Of a DNA stretch of 36,106 bases, positions 22,445 to 35,642 are shown one piece after another. This stretch comes from Thalassovita sp. GTDB taxonomy: Bacteria; Bacteroidota; Bacteroidia; Cytophagales; Flammeovirgaceae. The first letter of the stretch is position 1, and the number at the start of each line of letters is the position of its first letter. Both the position numbers and the translations under genes were made by a program. The notes beneath the pieces were generated by a model. It was not told the origin of the DNA. It was given only the letters and a program-made list of their open reading frames with translations, and searched no databases. Location of the stretch: NCBI GenBank assembly GCA_002729595.1, contig PBYL01000388.1:1-36106 (forward strand), read 5' to 3'.

Positions 22445-23086
22445 TTACTTTTTCTTCCTTTTTTTTGAAATAATTCCTGAGTGTTTTTCAATATAAACAT
22501 TCATAAGCTGAAGGTTTTTCTGATGTACTTCAAGTGCTTCCTCTAGATGAATTACACCTCCTTCAAAAGTTAAATTAGACATATAAGCAGCAAGATCTTT
22601 GGCTTTTTGTATAAAGTCTTGAAAACTACTAGCCAATAGCTGATCATTTTTAAAAAATAATTTTTCACCATCTAAATCTAGTTCGTAAAATTCCAGTTCA
22701 TCAACGCCCAACTTATGGAAATTGAATTGAAGCTCTTCTTGTTCTGTATAAATATAATCAGGGTCTTTATCTTTCTTCTTTTGGCAAAAGCTATAGAGAT
22801 CTGCTATGTCGGAAAAATACTGCCTAACTTCTTTACCCTTTTGGGTTTCTTCCATCATAGCTATATGCTTAGCTTTATCTGCTAACAGCATATATTGTAT
22901 TAAATCGCATTTGGTATTTTGTTGGGTATTTGGATCGAGGTATAAATAGTCCAAACCTTCTTTAAGTTTGAGATTGCTAATGGCAGTTTTTATCCAATTA
23001 TAAAATTCCGATTTAACTTCTAAAAAAGTGTATAACTCTCTGGCATCTACAAACTTCTTCTCAAATATTTTATAGGGCTTCATCAC
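22445..23086 (-). CDS. AntA/AntB-type antirepressor-like protein (first copy)
   Basis: A 213-residue protein with an N-terminal AntA/AntB domain (about 10-100): FVDARELYTFLEV, NWIKTAI, then MLLADKAKHIAMMEETQKGKEVRQYF, the phage-antirepressor pattern of ARELH...FSNWI...KGREVR. In phages such proteins bind and inactivate a repressor. The C-terminal part (about 128-205; ELDLDGEKLFF, AKDLAAYMSNL, LEEALEVHQK) is not the usual KilAC domain. It aligns by eye with the C-terminal part of the second copy at 30313-31050. The gene is the last of a minus-strand series after the TraO-like gene, with a 28-bp inverted repeat at 23134-23161 in between. Start at the first of two adjacent ATGs. Confidence 0.75.
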   Translation of the reverse strand: MMKPYKIFEKKFVDARELYTFLEVKSEFYNWIKTAISNLKLKEGLDYLYLDPNTQQNTKCDLIQYMLLADKAKHIAMMEETQKGKEVRQYFSDIADLYSFCQKKKDKDPDYIYTEQEELQFNFHKLGVDELEFYELDLDGEKLFFKNDQLLASSFQDFIQKAKDLAAYMSNLTFEGGVIHLEEALEVHQKNLQLMNVYIEKHSGIISKKRKKK

Positions 23087-30312: not shown

Positions 30313-31050
30313 TCACTCCCCCTCCCCTAACTCTCTAATATCTCCTTCTGCAGGGAAGCTTTCTGGAGTATCTCCAATATTATCGATAATGGTTTTTCTA
30401 ATATCCTTATGGTGAATTCTGTTAAGTTCTTCTATGTCTTGTAATGAGTGTTTGTTTTTCATCATGCGGGTGTTAGTCATTTCGGTGGCAAAGTCTCTAC
30501 CTTTGAGTAATAGTGTAGGTAAAGCCTCATCTGGTAAAGGTTCGCCATTAAACAAAACTTGGCGACCTGCTAAGTCAATCTGCACATAATCTGCATGGCT
30601 CCCTCCTATTTCGGTAATGTTTTCTAGTAGCTTTTCTTTTGTACCTTCCAGCTTTACAAATGCTTCTAGCCTCTTATTCTGGTTTAATTCTTTTAACGCT
30701 TTTTCGCATTCGATAAAATATTCTCGTACTTCCCTACCCTTATCGTTATTTTGGAGCATGGCAATTTGCTTCGCACACTCCAAGGTTAAGTAATAATCTC
30801 TCTTACTAACTCGCTGATTATCAGACTCGCTAAATTTAGCGACACCATTTTCTTCTATTACTACTCCTTTGTAATTATAACCAATGGTACTATAATCAAC
30901 ATTTAATGTAAAATCATATTCCAACATCCTCTTAATCCAATTACTAAAGTCTTCTCCTTTTTTTTGCCCCCCTTTAGCTTGCACCACTACATAATGGTGC
31001 AATTCTCTAGCATTGACTAAATTTCCCTGATAAATTTTTATTATTTCCAT
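30313..31050 (-). CDS. AntA/AntB-type antirepressor-like protein (second copy)
   Basis: A 245-residue protein with a clear AntA/AntB domain at about 8-118: LVNARELHHYVVV, a lysine/glycine-rich insert, GEDFSNWIKRML, then YYLTLECAKQIAMLQNNDKGREVREYFIECEK. Phage proteins of this type neutralise repressors. The C-terminal part (about 155-232; DYVQIDLAGRQVLFNGE, RDFATEMTNTRM, IEELNRIHHKDI) aligns by eye with the C-terminal part of the copy at 22445-23086 and replaces the usual KilAC domain. It starts 15 nt after parB and is most likely in the partition operon, so it may act on plasmid maintenance or on a plasmid repressor. Confidence 0.82.
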   Translation of the reverse strand: MEIIKIYQGNLVNARELHHYVVVQAKGGQKKGEDFSNWIKRMLEYDFTLNVDYSTIGYNYKGVVIEENGVAKFSESDNQRVSKRDYYLTLECAKQIAMLQNNDKGREVREYFIECEKALKELNQNKRLEAFVKLEGTKEKLLENITEIGGSHADYVQIDLAGRQVLFNGEPLPDEALPTLLLKGRDFATEMTNTRMMKNKHSLQDIEELNRIHHKDIRKTIIDNIGDTPESFPAEGDIRELGEGE

Positions 31051-31065
31051 ATCTAAAAATTTTCA

Positions 31066-31914
31066 TTAAAACATTTTTTCCAAAGCATTCAATTCCTTTT
31101 TCACCTCTTTAATCAATATTTTATCTCTTGTCTTAACTGCTTGGTTTAGCTTATTGATTATTTCTTTTTGCATAAAAGTAATATCATTCCCTTTTACAGG
31201 AGTTTTCTTTCCTTTTAACTGTTTTTGCAACACATCAACAGAATCAATGCTTTCATTTTTAATAGTTTTTAAGCCCGCTAAGCTTTGCACTTCCTGTTTC
31301 TTAATGTTGGTCTTTCCTTTAAGTACTTCTTGTCTTAAAACGGGTGAAAGTTTATTTAGCCCTTGAGTGTATTTTGCATCTCGCTTGATGGTTTTTTCAT
31401 TTACACCATACTCATTAGCCAGTTTTTCAGCCGTATTTACCGAAGGGGACATTTTGTCCTTTTCGGTAGAATTTTGTCTTAGGTTCTGAATATTACCTGT
31501 TCTGTTTTTCTCCGTTTCGTACCTAAGGCCACGGTAATAGCTAATTTCTTCTTGAGTTAGATTTCTCCTACCCAACTGTATTTTTACCATGTAATCTTTT
31601 ACTTGATCGAGATCATCAAAATCTTTTTGAATAATCTTAAAATCAAGTTTATGCTCCTTACATATTCTATATCTGTTATGGCCATCAACCAACACATATT
31701 CGCCATTATTATTCCAAACTATAAGCGCATCTTTGCAACCTTCCTCCAAAATATTAGCTTCTAACTGCTTATATTCTTCGTCAGAAAGTGCACGAATAAA
31801 AGCTTTCAAATCATCATTAATAACGAGATTATTCTTAATGTGATCTTCACTTGTTGTTTTCTGCTGAATGGCAGCATTTAATATCTTACTTTTTGCAAAA
31901 ACTTTCTTAGCCAT
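31066..31914 (-). CDS. parB: ParB-like partition protein
   Basis: A 282-residue ParB-family protein that would bind the plasmid centromere and stimulate ParA. The ParB/Srx-type N-terminal domain (about 35-120) contains YVLVDGHNRYRI (73-84), in place of the GERR-type motif of classical CTP-binding ParB, then IQLGRRNLTQEE. A helix-turn-helix follows at about 160-185 (TAEKLANEYGVNEKTIKRDAKY). The tail (about 200-282) is basic and helical, suited to dimerisation. It overlaps parA by 8 nt. The VDGHNR form is common in ParB-like proteins of Bacteroidota mobile elements. Whether it still binds CTP is uncertain. No parS was identified. Confidence 0.87.
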   Translation of the reverse strand: MAKKVFAKSKILNAAIQQKTTSEDHIKNNLVINDDLKAFIRALSDEEYKQLEANILEEGCKDALIVWNNNGEYVLVDGHNRYRICKEHKLDFKIIQKDFDDLDQVKDYMVKIQLGRRNLTQEEISYYRGLRYETEKNRTGNIQNLRQNSTEKDKMSPSVNTAEKLANEYGVNEKTIKRDAKYTQGLNKLSPVLRQEVLKGKTNIKKQEVQSLAGLKTIKNESIDSVDVLQKQLKGKKTPVKGNDITFMQKEIINKLNQAVKTRDKILIKEVKKELNALEKMF

Positions 31915-32644
31915 GTAAAATCTCTTTTGATAAGTTCATATAATCTTCTGCTCCTTGTGATTTCTCGTTATAATCAAAAATAGTTTGATTGTTAAATGAT
32001 GCCTCTGTTAAAGCAATGTTTTGTCTAATAAAAGTATTAAATACCATATCTCCATAACCCTCTTGTACTGTCTCCTGAATAGTCTTATTAATCACCGTAT
32101 TATTTACTTGAGTCAACAAAATTCCTTTTATTTTTAAACCTGGATTCAGATTTTGTTTTAGTTCTTCAATCAATTCAAAAATGGTTTGCAAACCTTTTAT
32201 AGAAAAATATTGGCTCTGAGTGGGAATTATCACCTCGTAAGATGCGATCAAAGCATTGATAGTAAGTATATCTAAAGATGGAGGACAGTCAATCAACACA
32301 TAATCATATTGATCTTTTACAATACCTAAAGCTGTTTTAAGTTTAAAATAGCCATTTACATTTTTTCTCAATTCATCATCTGCACCTGCTAACTCTAAAT
32401 TAGCTGGCACTATATGTAAATTCCCACCAAGATCAATTATTGGCAATTCTTCATTTTTGCACAATGTTTCGTATACTGTAATCTCTGGTTCCTCCACTCC
32501 TACATGTTGGCTCAAATTAGATTGAGAATCAATATCAATTATCAAAACTTTCTTTTTCTGTATTGCCAAAGCTTTTCCTAAATTGACAGTTGTTGTTGTT
32601 TTACCTGTTCCCCCTTTATGATTAAGGATTGATATAATAGTCAT
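31907..32644 (-). CDS. parA: ParA-like partition ATPase
   Basis: A 245-residue ParA/Soj-type ATPase. The deviant Walker A is at 9-17 (KGGTGKTTT) with the preceding signature lysine, the A' motif is in LIIDIDSQSNLSQ, and the Walker B is LIDCPPSLD (about 117-125). It lacks the N-terminal DNA-binding domain of type Ia ParA, so a separate protein probably regulates the operon; the HTH/coiled-coil protein encoded 27 nt upstream is the obvious candidate. It overlaps parB by 8 nt. Confidence 0.95.
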   Translation of the reverse strand: MTIISILNHKGGTGKTTTTVNLGKALAIQKKKVLIIDIDSQSNLSQHVGVEEPEITVYETLCKNEELPIIDLGGNLHIVPANLELAGADDELRKNVNGYFKLKTALGIVKDQYDYVLIDCPPSLDILTINALIASYEVIIPTQSQYFSIKGLQTIFELIEELKQNLNPGLKIKGILLTQVNNTVINKTIQETVQEGYGDMVFNTFIRQNIALTEASFNNQTIFDYNEKSQGAEDYMNLSKEILHG

Positions 32645-32671
32645 CAGTTTGTCTCTATTTAGTTTAATTAA

Positions 32672-33061
32672 TTATTTATGAGATACTACTTTGTTCAACT
32701 CACTCCTTAAGTCACTTACCTCCTTTACTAAATGATAAATCATTTCATCACTCTTAATTTTCTGTTGTTGATGCATATCTAGTTGTTTTTCCAAATACTT
32801 TATTCTGTCTTTTAAATCCTTTAAGACCTCCCCATCTGATGTATAAGATTGAGATAATGGACTCCCAAATGTTTCAAGTAAATACTTTTTCTTGATATAA
32901 ATGGGAGAGGTCTTACCTTCTTCTTTCTTCTTCAATAATTCAGATGAATTAGGAAGTTTTTTAGTTTTATCTATAAACCTTCGCAAAGTACTTATACTTT
33001 TGCCAGTAAGCTTAATAGCTTGCGATACGGATACAAATTCTTGTGAAATATCTGACATCAT
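32672..33061 (-). CDS. HTH and coiled-coil protein at the head of the par operon
   Basis: A 129-residue protein (from the ATG at 33061; the ATG at 33058 is equally plausible and a longer frame to 33076 has no better start). An N-terminal helix-turn-helix (VSQAIKLTGKSISTLRRFID, about 12-31) of the MerR/excisionase-like type is followed by a YIKKKYLLETFG strand and a long C-terminal coiled coil (about 80-125). The layout resembles small plasmid DNA-binding proteins placed upstream of parA. It could repress the operon by binding the palindrome at 33087-33100 just upstream of its own start, or act as a replication accessory protein. The role is inference. Confidence 0.72.
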   Translation of the reverse strand: MMSDISQEFVSVSQAIKLTGKSISTLRRFIDKTKKLPNSSELLKKKEEGKTSPIYIKKKYLLETFGSPLSQSYTSDGEVLKDLKDRIKYLEKQLDMHQQQKIKSDEMIYHLVKEVSDLRSELNKVVSHK

Positions 33062-33086
33062 GGTAAACAAAAACATATTTTTTTCA

Positions 33087-33110
33087 ATATCTAAAGATAT
33101 ATCAAAGATA
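33087..33110 (-). promoter_or_regulatory. Promoter and palindromic operator of the par operon
   Basis: Read on the minus strand, TATCTTTG (33103-33110) matches the -7 consensus TAnnTTTG, and the start point would fall near 33096, inside the perfect palindrome ATATCTAAAGATAT (33087-33100). That layout suits repression. It resembles the palindrome at the tra promoter (GTATCTATAGATAC, 20845-20858); both fit TATCT-2 nt-AGATA. No good -33 box is seen. Confidence 0.55.
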
Positions 33111-33135
33111 GTTCTTTTGAAAATTCTTTGATATC
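33099..33135. repeat. Inverted repeat in the par/rep divergent gap
   Basis: ATATCAAAG (33099-33107) and CTTTGATAT (33127-33135) are perfect 9-bp inverted copies with 19 nt between. They lie between the par operon -7 box and the rep start and could bind a regulator that controls both divergent units. Confidence 0.5.
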
Positions 33136-33175: not shown

Positions 33176-34837
33176 ATGAAAGGTTATTTACTTTACCCCC
33201 AAGACCAAGACAGTGAAAGCCCACTTACAGAACCTCAAAAAGAGGCTATCTGGAAATTACTCAATTTAAAATTAGAGGGAGAAAATAATATTGAGACTCT
33301 TACAAAAGATACGCAATGGCAGAATAATTTTGCTAGCATCAATGATGATATAAAAGAGCAAAGCTTAATTAAGTTTTGGATTGATAAGATTGATTTGGGC
33401 CTTAGAAACATTCCAGACGATCACTCTTTAGCTGGAATTAATTTTGATGATGGTTCATGCATATATATTCCCAATAGCTTTTCTTTTTCAAATAAAACAA
33501 CTCCTTTAGAGACAATGAGATTAAGATTACTCGATCTTGCTTATAAAGGAATTGACCCAGAGTTTTTGGTTAATAAAAAGAGAAAAGGATTTCAGGTTAA
33601 GGAAACAAATGAGAGTATTAAGACTAAAGCACATCAATATCTGGAATTTGCAAACAAAGAGTTCATAAGTTTTGCCTTTACATCTACTAAAAGTCCAGAT
33701 CAAAAAACGAATGATATTTCTTACAACTACCAGCTTAAAAACCATACAAAAAAGACGATAGCTCAGGCAGAAGAAATTATCAAATTTGTAATAGAGTGGG
33801 GGTACAAGCTTGGAACTACATTACCAGAAATTCAACAAAAAAGATCTACTAAATATTCACGCGATCTTTTGAAGTACCAAACAACTCCGATTAAAAGGCA
33901 GCTTGCATTATTTCCAATAGAGCAAAAGCAAAACCTTAGAAAGATAGAGGAAATAATAAATGCTAAAAGCAGTAATATACAAACAACAAAAAGTAAAGGC
34001 TTAAGGTACGATTACATTCCAGAAAAACTTGTTCTAAAAGATGGAGAGTTCACAGATGATGAACTGAAAGCTATTATATCTGTAATGATCTTGATTAACA
34101 AAGCTAAAGAGCATGAGCAGTTTAAAACCATTGATACTTCGTTGTCTTACTTTACATTGAGTATAAATGAATTTAACAAGTACTTTGGTGTACCATCTAC
34201 AAAAAGAGGAGCAGACAAAAAACTTAGATTTACAGGAAGAAAATCTGAAGAAGCTAAACAGGCATTATTAAATCTAAGTAAAAAAGTAATTGCTACACAC
34301 TTTGAAAAAAGGCTAAAATCAGGCAATAGTAAAAGTGCTAAACGTAAAATGATTACTGAGGTAGTTCCAATTATAAATCCTCTTAAAATAAGTATAAATG
34401 GCGAATATGAGATAGGGGATAAGCTTCCATTAGAAGAAGGAGAAGTAACTGTTGCTGTAAACAGAATATTCTTTGAAAACTTGGGTGAGTCTGGTAGTTT
34501 TTTCTTTATTCCCGAAAACATCAATTTAGAAATAACTACTGCTGCAGGAGGCAAAAGAGTTTCTCCAGGAGTACGAAATTTTGGTGTATGGCTACATAGT
34601 ATAACACCCAAAAAGGATTTAACATGGGAAGTTACCTATCCAAAGCTAATAGATATTCTATGGTTGCATAAATATCAAGAAGAGGGTAGAAAAAGCTTGA
34701 TTAAGAAAAGTATTCAAAAAGCTTTTGATAATGCAATAGCCAGAGGGATATTAGAAAAGGTAACTGAAGGAGTGTCAGTTGACGGTTATGTGAAATACAC
34801 ACTGCATTTTACCCAATTGTATATAAATTTCAGATAA
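33176..34837 (+). CDS. Plasmid replication initiation protein (Rep, iteron-type)
   Basis: Replication initiator that should bind the iterons lying directly downstream. I chose the ATG at 33176 (MKGYLLYPQ), giving 553 residues; the frame is open to about 33128 but that part is not protein-like. The C-terminal half (about 285-553) looks like a two-winged-helix Rep_3/RepB domain: an opening DDELKAIISVMILI, then SINEFNKYFGVP, a LLNLSKKVI strand-helix unit, and a second domain with GVWLHSITPKKDLTWEVTYPKLIDIL and a helical end. The N-terminal 270 residues are unfamiliar, making the protein longer than typical iteron Reps (300-400). It is divergent from the par operon and its stop codon at 34835-34837 touches the first iteron. 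The rep call is firm on context; the N-terminal domain is unassigned. Confidence 0.85.
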   Translation: MKGYLLYPQDQDSESPLTEPQKEAIWKLLNLKLEGENNIETLTKDTQWQNNFASINDDIKEQSLIKFWIDKIDLGLRNIPDDHSLAGINFDDGSCIYIPNSFSFSNKTTPLETMRLRLLDLAYKGIDPEFLVNKKRKGFQVKETNESIKTKAHQYLEFANKEFISFAFTSTKSPDQKTNDISYNYQLKNHTKKTIAQAEEIIKFVIEWGYKLGTTLPEIQQKRSTKYSRDLLKYQTTPIKRQLALFPIEQKQNLRKIEEIINAKSSNIQTTKSKGLRYDYIPEKLVLKDGEFTDDELKAIISVMILINKAKEHEQFKTIDTSLSYFTLSINEFNKYFGVPSTKRGADKKLRFTGRKSEEAKQALLNLSKKVIATHFEKRLKSGNSKSAKRKMITEVVPIINPLKISINGEYEIGDKLPLEEGEVTVAVNRIFFENLGESGSFFFIPENINLEITTAAGGKRVSPGVRNFGVWLHSITPKKDLTWEVTYPKLIDILWLHKYQEEGRKSLIKKSIQKAFDNAIARGILEKVTEGVSVDGYVKYTLHFTQLYINFR

Positions 34838-35310
34838 GTTACACGTCTTTTTGCAGTAAAGCTATATTTAAAGCTCACTATTTGGTTTCTTTGAAGAATT
34901 AAATCTAAACAAGTTACACGTCTTTTTGCAGTAAAAAAGTTCATTACAACCCATGAATACAGATTTAGTAAATAATAATCACTGCAAAAAGCAACTTGAT
35001 TAACCTTATAAACCTAAATCAAAAGGGTTACACGTCTTTTTGCAGTAAGGTCTTATTCTACATTTTTGATAAAAATTCTAAATTCTCTTCAATACTGGTA
35101 AAGTTACACGTCTTTTTGCAGTGAGAATATACTCCAATCTATGAAAAAAGCTAATTCAGCTCAATTTTGACAGTTATATAATCTCCTAAGGATGTTTAGA
35201 GCATATTTCACAAAAGTTACACGTCTTTTTGCAGAAGACTACCACTAAAAGAAAATAGAAGCATTTCCTGTAGTAAGGACAAAGCAAAAGTTACACGTCT
35301 TTTTGCAGTA
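34838..35310 (+). repeat. Six spaced iterons (family 1)
   Basis: Six direct copies of G followed by TTACACGTCTTTTTGCAGTA (21 bp) start at 34838, 34913, 35027, 35103, 35216 and 35290; only the last two bases vary. The first directly abuts the rep stop codon. The start-to-start distances alternate, 75, 114, 76, 113 and 74 nt, while the intervening sequence is not conserved. These are almost certainly Rep-binding iterons. A reverse half-copy (CTGCAAAAAG) lies at about 34982-34991. Confidence 0.92.
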
Positions 35311-35322
35311 AGGGTATTTTGT

Positions 35323-35354
35323 AAGTAGATTATTAAAAGATTAATAATCTACTT
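35323..35354. repeat. Hairpin 1 in origin region
   Basis: Arms AAGTAGATTATTAA (35323-35336) and TTAATAATCTACTT (35341-35354), perfect 14 bp with a 4-nt loop, between the two iteron clusters. It shares the core AGTAGAT with two later hairpins. Confidence 0.7.
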
Positions 35355-35383
35355 TAACAAAAACAGTGTTATATTACCTCAAA

Positions 35384-35400
35384 ATTACTTTTGCAGTAAT
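35384..35400. repeat. Degenerate palindromic iteron
   Basis: ATTACTTTTGCAGTAAT keeps the iteron's TTTTGCAGTA end but is itself an inverted repeat (ATTACT/AGTAAT, 5-nt centre). It lies 3 nt before the tandem iteron cluster. Confidence 0.5.
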
Positions 35401-35402
35401 AA

Positions 35403-35511
35403 GTTACACGTATTAATGCAGTAGGTTACACGTATTGCTGCAGAGGGTTACACGTATTTTTGTAGTTAGGCACACGTATTAGTGCAGAGGGTTACACGTA
35501 TTTTTGTAGTT
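35403..35511 (+). repeat. Five tandem 22-bp iterons (family 2)
   Basis: Units start at 35403, 35425, 35447, 35469 and 35491, an exact 22-bp period (about two helical turns). All share ACACGTATT; the 3' half varies (TGCAGTA, TGCAGAG, TGTAGTT). Units 3 and 5 are identical, and a 30-bp block at 35441-35470 recurs at 35485-35514, so the array grew by a 44-bp pair duplication. The family differs from the spaced one at ACGTATT versus ACGTCTT. Probably the core origin where Rep is loaded. Confidence 0.92.
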
Positions 35512-35514
35512 AGG

Positions 35515-35605
35515 TGTATTGTAACTAGTTGATACAAAGATAGTTATCCAATAATTTTATGGGTCATTATATTTATTATATATTATTAGTATTATAATAT
35601 ATATA
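35515..35605 (+). other. Likely DNA unwinding element with DnaA-box-like site
   Basis: Next to the tandem iterons is TTATCCAAT (35544-35552), 7 of 9 to the DnaA box TTATCCACA, then a stretch from 35553 to 35605 that is nearly all A and T (TATTATATATTATTAG and similar). Iterons, DnaA box and AT-rich tract in this order are the usual layout of an iteron origin. Based on layout, not on a tested site. Confidence 0.55.
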
Positions 35606-35642
35606 GAATCTACTTTGTTTTTAGATACAAAGTAGATTCTAT
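35603..35642. repeat. Hairpin 2 in origin region
   Basis: Arms ATAGAATCTACTTTGT (35603-35618) and ACAAAGTAGATTCTAT (35627-35642), perfect 16 bp with an 8-nt loop, at the far edge of the AT-rich tract. Little T-run follows, so it is not a classic terminator; a primosome-assembly or structural element is possible. Contains the AGTAGAT core. Confidence 0.75.

Follow-up and report, generated by a model that had tools for sequence, protein, structure and literature searches.

Tandem and spaced iterons beside a RepE/pi-type initiator gene: a likely basic replicon of a Bacteroidota plasmid with a candidate copy-number control array

The rep locus and its neighbourhood

The window, i.e. the whole stretch of 36,106 nucleotides that was analysed, is one entire contig (G000:C388); the draft genome bin to which it belongs has 487 contigs and a completeness of 77.7%. 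A search for an overlap between the contig ends found none, and circularity is therefore not shown. The region of interest contains the gene for a replication initiator (Rep), followed by two arrays of iterons, an AT-rich element and a perfect hairpin, while parA and a parB-like gene sit on the other side of rep from the arrays (Table 1). The inverted repeat in front of rep resembles the iteron little and is a candidate operator for Rep autoregulation. Two genes with an AntA-type antirepressor domain are present in the window (30313-31050 and 22445-23086); the first adjoins parAB, is also kept there in the closest related plasmid, and gives a weak-to-moderate PADLOC candidate match (PDC-S13).

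Rep matched no family in Pfam or NCBIfam, including Pfam Rep3_N (PF01051), which is matched by 3 of 22 homologues, and a sequence search against solved structures gave no credible match. In its predicted structure (overall pLDDT modest at 65, with a good C-terminal part), residues ~220-551 form two winged helices of the RepE/pi type. For residues 220-551, the model aligns with iteron-bound pi (2nra) at Z 13.3 (3.5 Å over 221 residues), with iteron-bound RepE54 (1rep) at Z 13.0 and with domains 2-3 of RctB (5tbf) at Z 11.9, well above the Z of ~6-8 that unrelated winged-helix proteins reach.

Table 1 Features of the rep locus and the iteron region (window coordinates)
Feature	Position	Strand	Basis or remark
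parB-like gene, parA, small unassigned gene	31066..33076	-	syntenic in sister plasmid
Inverted repeat TATCAAAGA-N16-TCTTTGATA before rep	33100..33133	.	mostly kept in sister plasmid
rep, 553-aa initiator counted from first ATG	33176..34837	+	ORF opens at TTG 33128
Spaced iteron 1	34838..34856	+	repeat scan
Spaced iteron 2	34913..34931	+	repeat scan
Broken inverted iteron, without core ACACGT	34979..34997	-	
Spaced iteron 3	35027..35045	+	repeat scan
Spaced iteron 4	35103..35121	+	repeat scan
Spaced iteron 5	35216..35234	+	repeat scan
Spaced iteron 6	35290..35308	+	repeat scan
Broken direct iteron, right half TTTTGCAG, immediately before tandem block	35383..35399	+	
Tandem block, five degenerate origin iterons	35403..35509	+	starts 35403, 35425, 35447, 35469, 35491; period exactly 22 nt
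32-nt block, second copy at 35483-35514 (44-nt duplication)	35439..35470	+	
TTGATACA, at site of family-conserved TGATNATCA-like box, degenerate in window	35529..35536	+	
Putative DNA unwinding element, AT-rich	35564..35605	.	sequence composition
Perfect hairpin, 16-bp stem, 8-nt loop	35603..35642	.	outer edge of unwinding element

Iteron arrays in the window

At up to two mismatches, the iteron GTTACACGTMTTNNTGYAG occurs eleven times in the window, all of them in this region and on the forward strand; 0.02 copies would be expected by chance. A repeat scan bore out the original prediction of six spaced copies, which share the 19-mer GTTACACGTCTTTTTGCAG unchanged and start 75, 114, 76, 113 and 74 nt apart, followed by five tandem copies at 22 nt. 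A further 113 nt separates the start of the last spaced iteron from that of the first tandem copy, which means that the alternation (75, 114, 76, 113, 74, 113) spans six intervals. The spacers had been described as having no obvious sequence in common, and in fact the three 189-nt units outside the iterons are 33% identical in register versus 31% for shuffles (p = 0.22). For the tandem block, the predicted duplication with a period of 44 nt is present, its length being 32 nt and not the 30 bp given earlier. The core difference between the two sets (ACGTC in the spaced, ACGTA in the tandem copies) likewise holds for all eleven copies in the window, but this position is variable among the tandem copies of the sister plasmid. 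Hidden iterons on a unit of 37.7 nt (75 being twice and 113 three times this length) were also considered and dropped, the broken inverted copy being out of register. The exact 19-mer was not found in viral contigs, and among 390 genomes of the order it occurs only in the genome of the window and in that of the sister, apart from one stray copy with a single mismatch.

Conservation of the two-array layout

The closest relative of Rep (L001/L056) is encoded in a genome of the same genus and is 66% identical to it. The gene order of this sister plasmid is syntenic (AntA-domain gene, parB, parA, small gene, rep), with 73-77% identity at the DNA level, and downstream of rep it carries six identical copies of the 19-mer of the window, followed by a degenerate tandem block with a period of mostly 22 nt. 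Its spaced iterons lie 37, 158, 142, 67 and 74 nt apart, with spacers that do not align with those of the window. A comparison of related origins had been asked for as a test of whether the 75/114 alternation is conserved, and the nearest relative does not have it: the sister retains six copies, at unrelated distances, and a tandem block, so that the two arrays have been preserved, but not the alternation.

Four genomes belonging to the same GTDB family supplied a wider set of origins with relatives of Rep. The loci were taken with their flanks, and direct repeats were sought in each by means of a position-weight matrix that had been trained on that locus. L050, L074, L075 and L059 were excluded from the array statistics because their repeats could not be clearly recognised as origin iterons close to the matching gene. 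Iterons are found in nearly all of the loci, typically as a tandem block of at least four copies at 20-23 nt with the others distributed over 0.2-1 kb. This layout, which is directly observed, is common to about 20 related plasmid origins: the tandem block is farthest from rep, and the spaced array always lies between the two. Three loci (the window, L056 and L051) have the arrays 3' of rep, and most other origins have them 5' of it. Seen from the AT-rich element, however, only the direction of rep varies, while the order of hairpin, AT-rich element, tandem block, spaced array and rep is constant. The spaced array is scant or missing in L043, L055 and L062 and is thus no strict requirement within the family. 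In 13 of the 15 testable non-redundant origins, similarity among the copies is higher in the spaced than in the tandem set (median difference 0.15, Wilcoxon p = 0.01); L063 is an exception, the degenerate copies there not being those of the tandem block. Particular spacings were noticed in some of the arrays, i.e. distances near 96 and 107 nt in L063 (1408-2620) and L065, and an alternation of 22 and 40 nt across several pairs in L052 (2763-3400). Comparison of the origin DNA with plasmid records gave only weak AT-rich matches.

Iteron dialects

To compare iterons between plasmids, the matrix of each origin was run against the arrays of all other origins. Among plasmids of the same bin (126 pairs), a matrix reached on a foreign array at most 0.57 of its own score (median about zero), whereas orthologous plasmids from different bins, including the window and L056, reached 1.02-1.17. 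Rep identity and iteron cross-match are correlated (Spearman 0.50). Iterons thus differ within a bin, an observation made directly on the sequences, and a dialect persists across hosts, as would be expected if iterons decide incompatibility; since the genomes include draft bins, the plasmids of one bin are not proven residents of one cell. The bins G000, G001, G005 and G010 contain 7-13 Rep loci of this one family each, with mutually non-matching iterons, and some of their Rep genes are interrupted by stop codons (e.g. G005:C40).

Proposed replicon and copy-number control

Judging from the sequence, the Rep model and the analogy with studied replicons, the region is likely to constitute the basic replicon of an iteron plasmid of the theta type, in which the spaced array would serve as a negative locus for copy number and incompatibility. 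The best reading of this array is that of a control locus comparable to incC or ori2-inc, acting via titration or via Rep-bridged pairing. The earlier proposal of a dedicated control or looping array can be retained to the extent that the split into tandem and spaced iterons recurs across the Rep family and that the spaced array is probably a control element; its second part, helical phasing under selection, is unsupported, given the unrelated distances in the sister and the pooled intervals discussed below.

By analogy with RepE, pi and RctB, whose fold Rep shares in the predicted structure, Rep would bind both sets of iterons, the tandem copies weakly and the spaced copies strongly, with the conservation of the iteron sequence being used as a stand-in for affinity. 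Rep monomers would fill the five weak tandem iterons beside the AT-rich element and, once on the tandem block, could melt this adjoining unwinding element. The six strong spaced copies would meanwhile titrate Rep. When Rep is plentiful, the Rep-bound spaced copies may pair with the tandem block, either in cis or in trans, by which initiation would be blocked.

In P1 (oriR/incA) and RK2 (oriV), as in the window, the origin iterons are accompanied by extra iterons that limit copy number; these systems differ from the window in iteron positions, numbers and spacings (a comparison of known layouts, not of sequences). The likeness to the oriS/ori2-repE-incC region of F lies in the Rep fold (Z ~13) and in tandem iterons adjoining an AT-rich element, and in F a second group of iterons, incC, is the locus for copy number and incompatibility, consisting of five iterons the deletion of which raises the copy number (PMC13028717). 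The second group of F, which titrates Rep and pairs in the way proposed for the spaced array, lies beyond repE, whereas that of the window is located between origin and rep and consists of six perfect copies 74-114 nt apart. Chromosome 2 of V. cholerae is replicated by a fold relative of Rep, RctB (Z 11.9), and its ori2 combines a replicating half, in which the iterons follow one another regularly head to tail, with an adjacent inhibitory half that contains more of them, similar to the window; this ori2-inc, adjacent to ori2-min, reduces copy number about tenfold (PMC6090056). A second type of site resembling the 39-mer was not found in the window. Closer in taxonomy, the Rep_3 plasmids of Persicobacteraceae (pPPrrn and others; PMC10645730) belong to the same phylum and contain Rep relatives by tblastn (36-38% identity to the relative L051), but in two records tandem-like repeats were found with no clear spaced array beside the matching gene.

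The present data provide a definition, at the level of sequence, of a replicon for poorly studied Bacteroidota plasmids, of which many occur per genome bin. With presumably weak tandem sites, presumably strong scattered sites and a dialect for each plasmid, titration and pairing could be told apart by experiment in about 20 natural parallel origins.

Origin of the iteron spacing

The 75/114 alternation is too regular for chance (P ~1e-5 for six intervals drawn from those of related arrays), and the control-locus model gives no account of this regularity. That the copies themselves are chance or functionless low-complexity repeats has practically no probability in view of their number relative to the chance expectation, and is ruled out by conservation, as six of six copies are identical in the diverged sister. 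A role of the spaced copies as a centromere (parS) for the adjacent parAB, and not as Rep sites, is also very improbable. It would fit with parA and a parB-like gene located 2 kb off and with the fact that parS sites often consist of spaced repeats, but the spaced copies have the same iteron sequence as the tandem origin block, and the iteron sequence follows Rep, as shown by the correlation given above. For the spaced array as a control locus bound by Rep, a serious though not quite probable origin of the alternation is a tandemly duplicated two-iteron unit of 189 nt, of which it would be the fossil, the spacers having drifted while the iterons were held in place by Rep. Intermediate stages of such a process are seen elsewhere, with residual identity between the spacers of the 107-nt units of L063 (47-51%, z 2-3.2) and of the 55-nt units of L039 (up to 48%, z 3.8), and the tandem block of the window contains a recent 44-nt duplication. 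Yet the three units of the window lack residual homology, and drift to saturation should have brought indels, while the unit lengths agree within 2 nt.

Alternatively, the spacing itself could be functional, with Rep-bound copies on one helical face and the array folding into defined loops, which is considered unlikely. In its favour, apart from the alternation, the six spaced copies of the window are loosely clustered on one face of the helix (R = 0.85, p = 0.04), and equal intervals recur within arrays beyond permutation (p = 0.0003, and p = 0.003 with the window left out). Moreover, L063 and L065 differ by 246 substitutions and by a single indel, which measures 10 nt, although these spacing comparisons were picked after the data had been seen and are thus leads and not proof of selection. 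In another system, a half-turn shift between neighbouring iterons abolishes the cooperativity of Rep (Bowers 2007, as cited in PMC4980987). Against functional spacing, the distances in the nearest relative are unrelated and correspond to 0.52, 0.05, 0.52, 0.38 and 0.05 turns (modulo 10.5), placing its six spaced copies on two opposite faces. When the arrays are pooled, a 10.5-nt period is absent from intervals above 45 nt (p = 0.15); the weak signal among all intervals above 30 nt (p = 0.005) vanishes without the steps of 40-45 nt and is due to these being two tandem steps. In most other related pairs of arrays, indels of 1-5 nt are common, and the faintly homologous spacers behind the equal intervals of L039 and L063 indicate that part of their recurrence goes back to duplication with later drift. 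Family-wide selection on iteron distances with free spacer sequence, by which each spaced array would work as a folding device, a DNA ruler determining the way in which it is brought to the origin by Rep, is unlikely, and similarly little credence is given to 75/114 (window), 86/96/107 (L063/L065) and 22/40 (L052) as lineage-specific solutions of such a ruler. The exact 75/114 distances are probably lineage-specific and dispensable for the function of the putative control locus.

Unwinding element, hairpin and other origin boxes

Beside the tandem iterons, the A+T content rises to 97% in a window of 30 nt, and the position of this putative unwinding element is conserved across the family. A DnaA box was not found in the window at one mismatch or fewer, and relatives show scattered matches with one mismatch. 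In 20 of 22 non-redundant origins, the score of the hairpin lies above the 95th percentile of shuffled sequences, and the stem sequences differ from origin to origin. Both in the window (35603-35642) and in the outer flanks of L036-L072, no run of T comes after it in most cases, and it is therefore no obvious terminator. Placed at the outer border of the unwinding element, it is perhaps a structure for priming or helicase loading, and it represents an additional, conserved part of the replicon. An IHF site is not claimed for the window, as the IHF-like match there carries two mismatches. Across the family, the IHF-like sequence WATCAANNNNTTR is enriched, 14 of 22 origins having it within one mismatch against an expectation of 2.6, and these sites lie within the TGATNATCA-like box in the outer flanks, at +17 to +38 from the tandem block.
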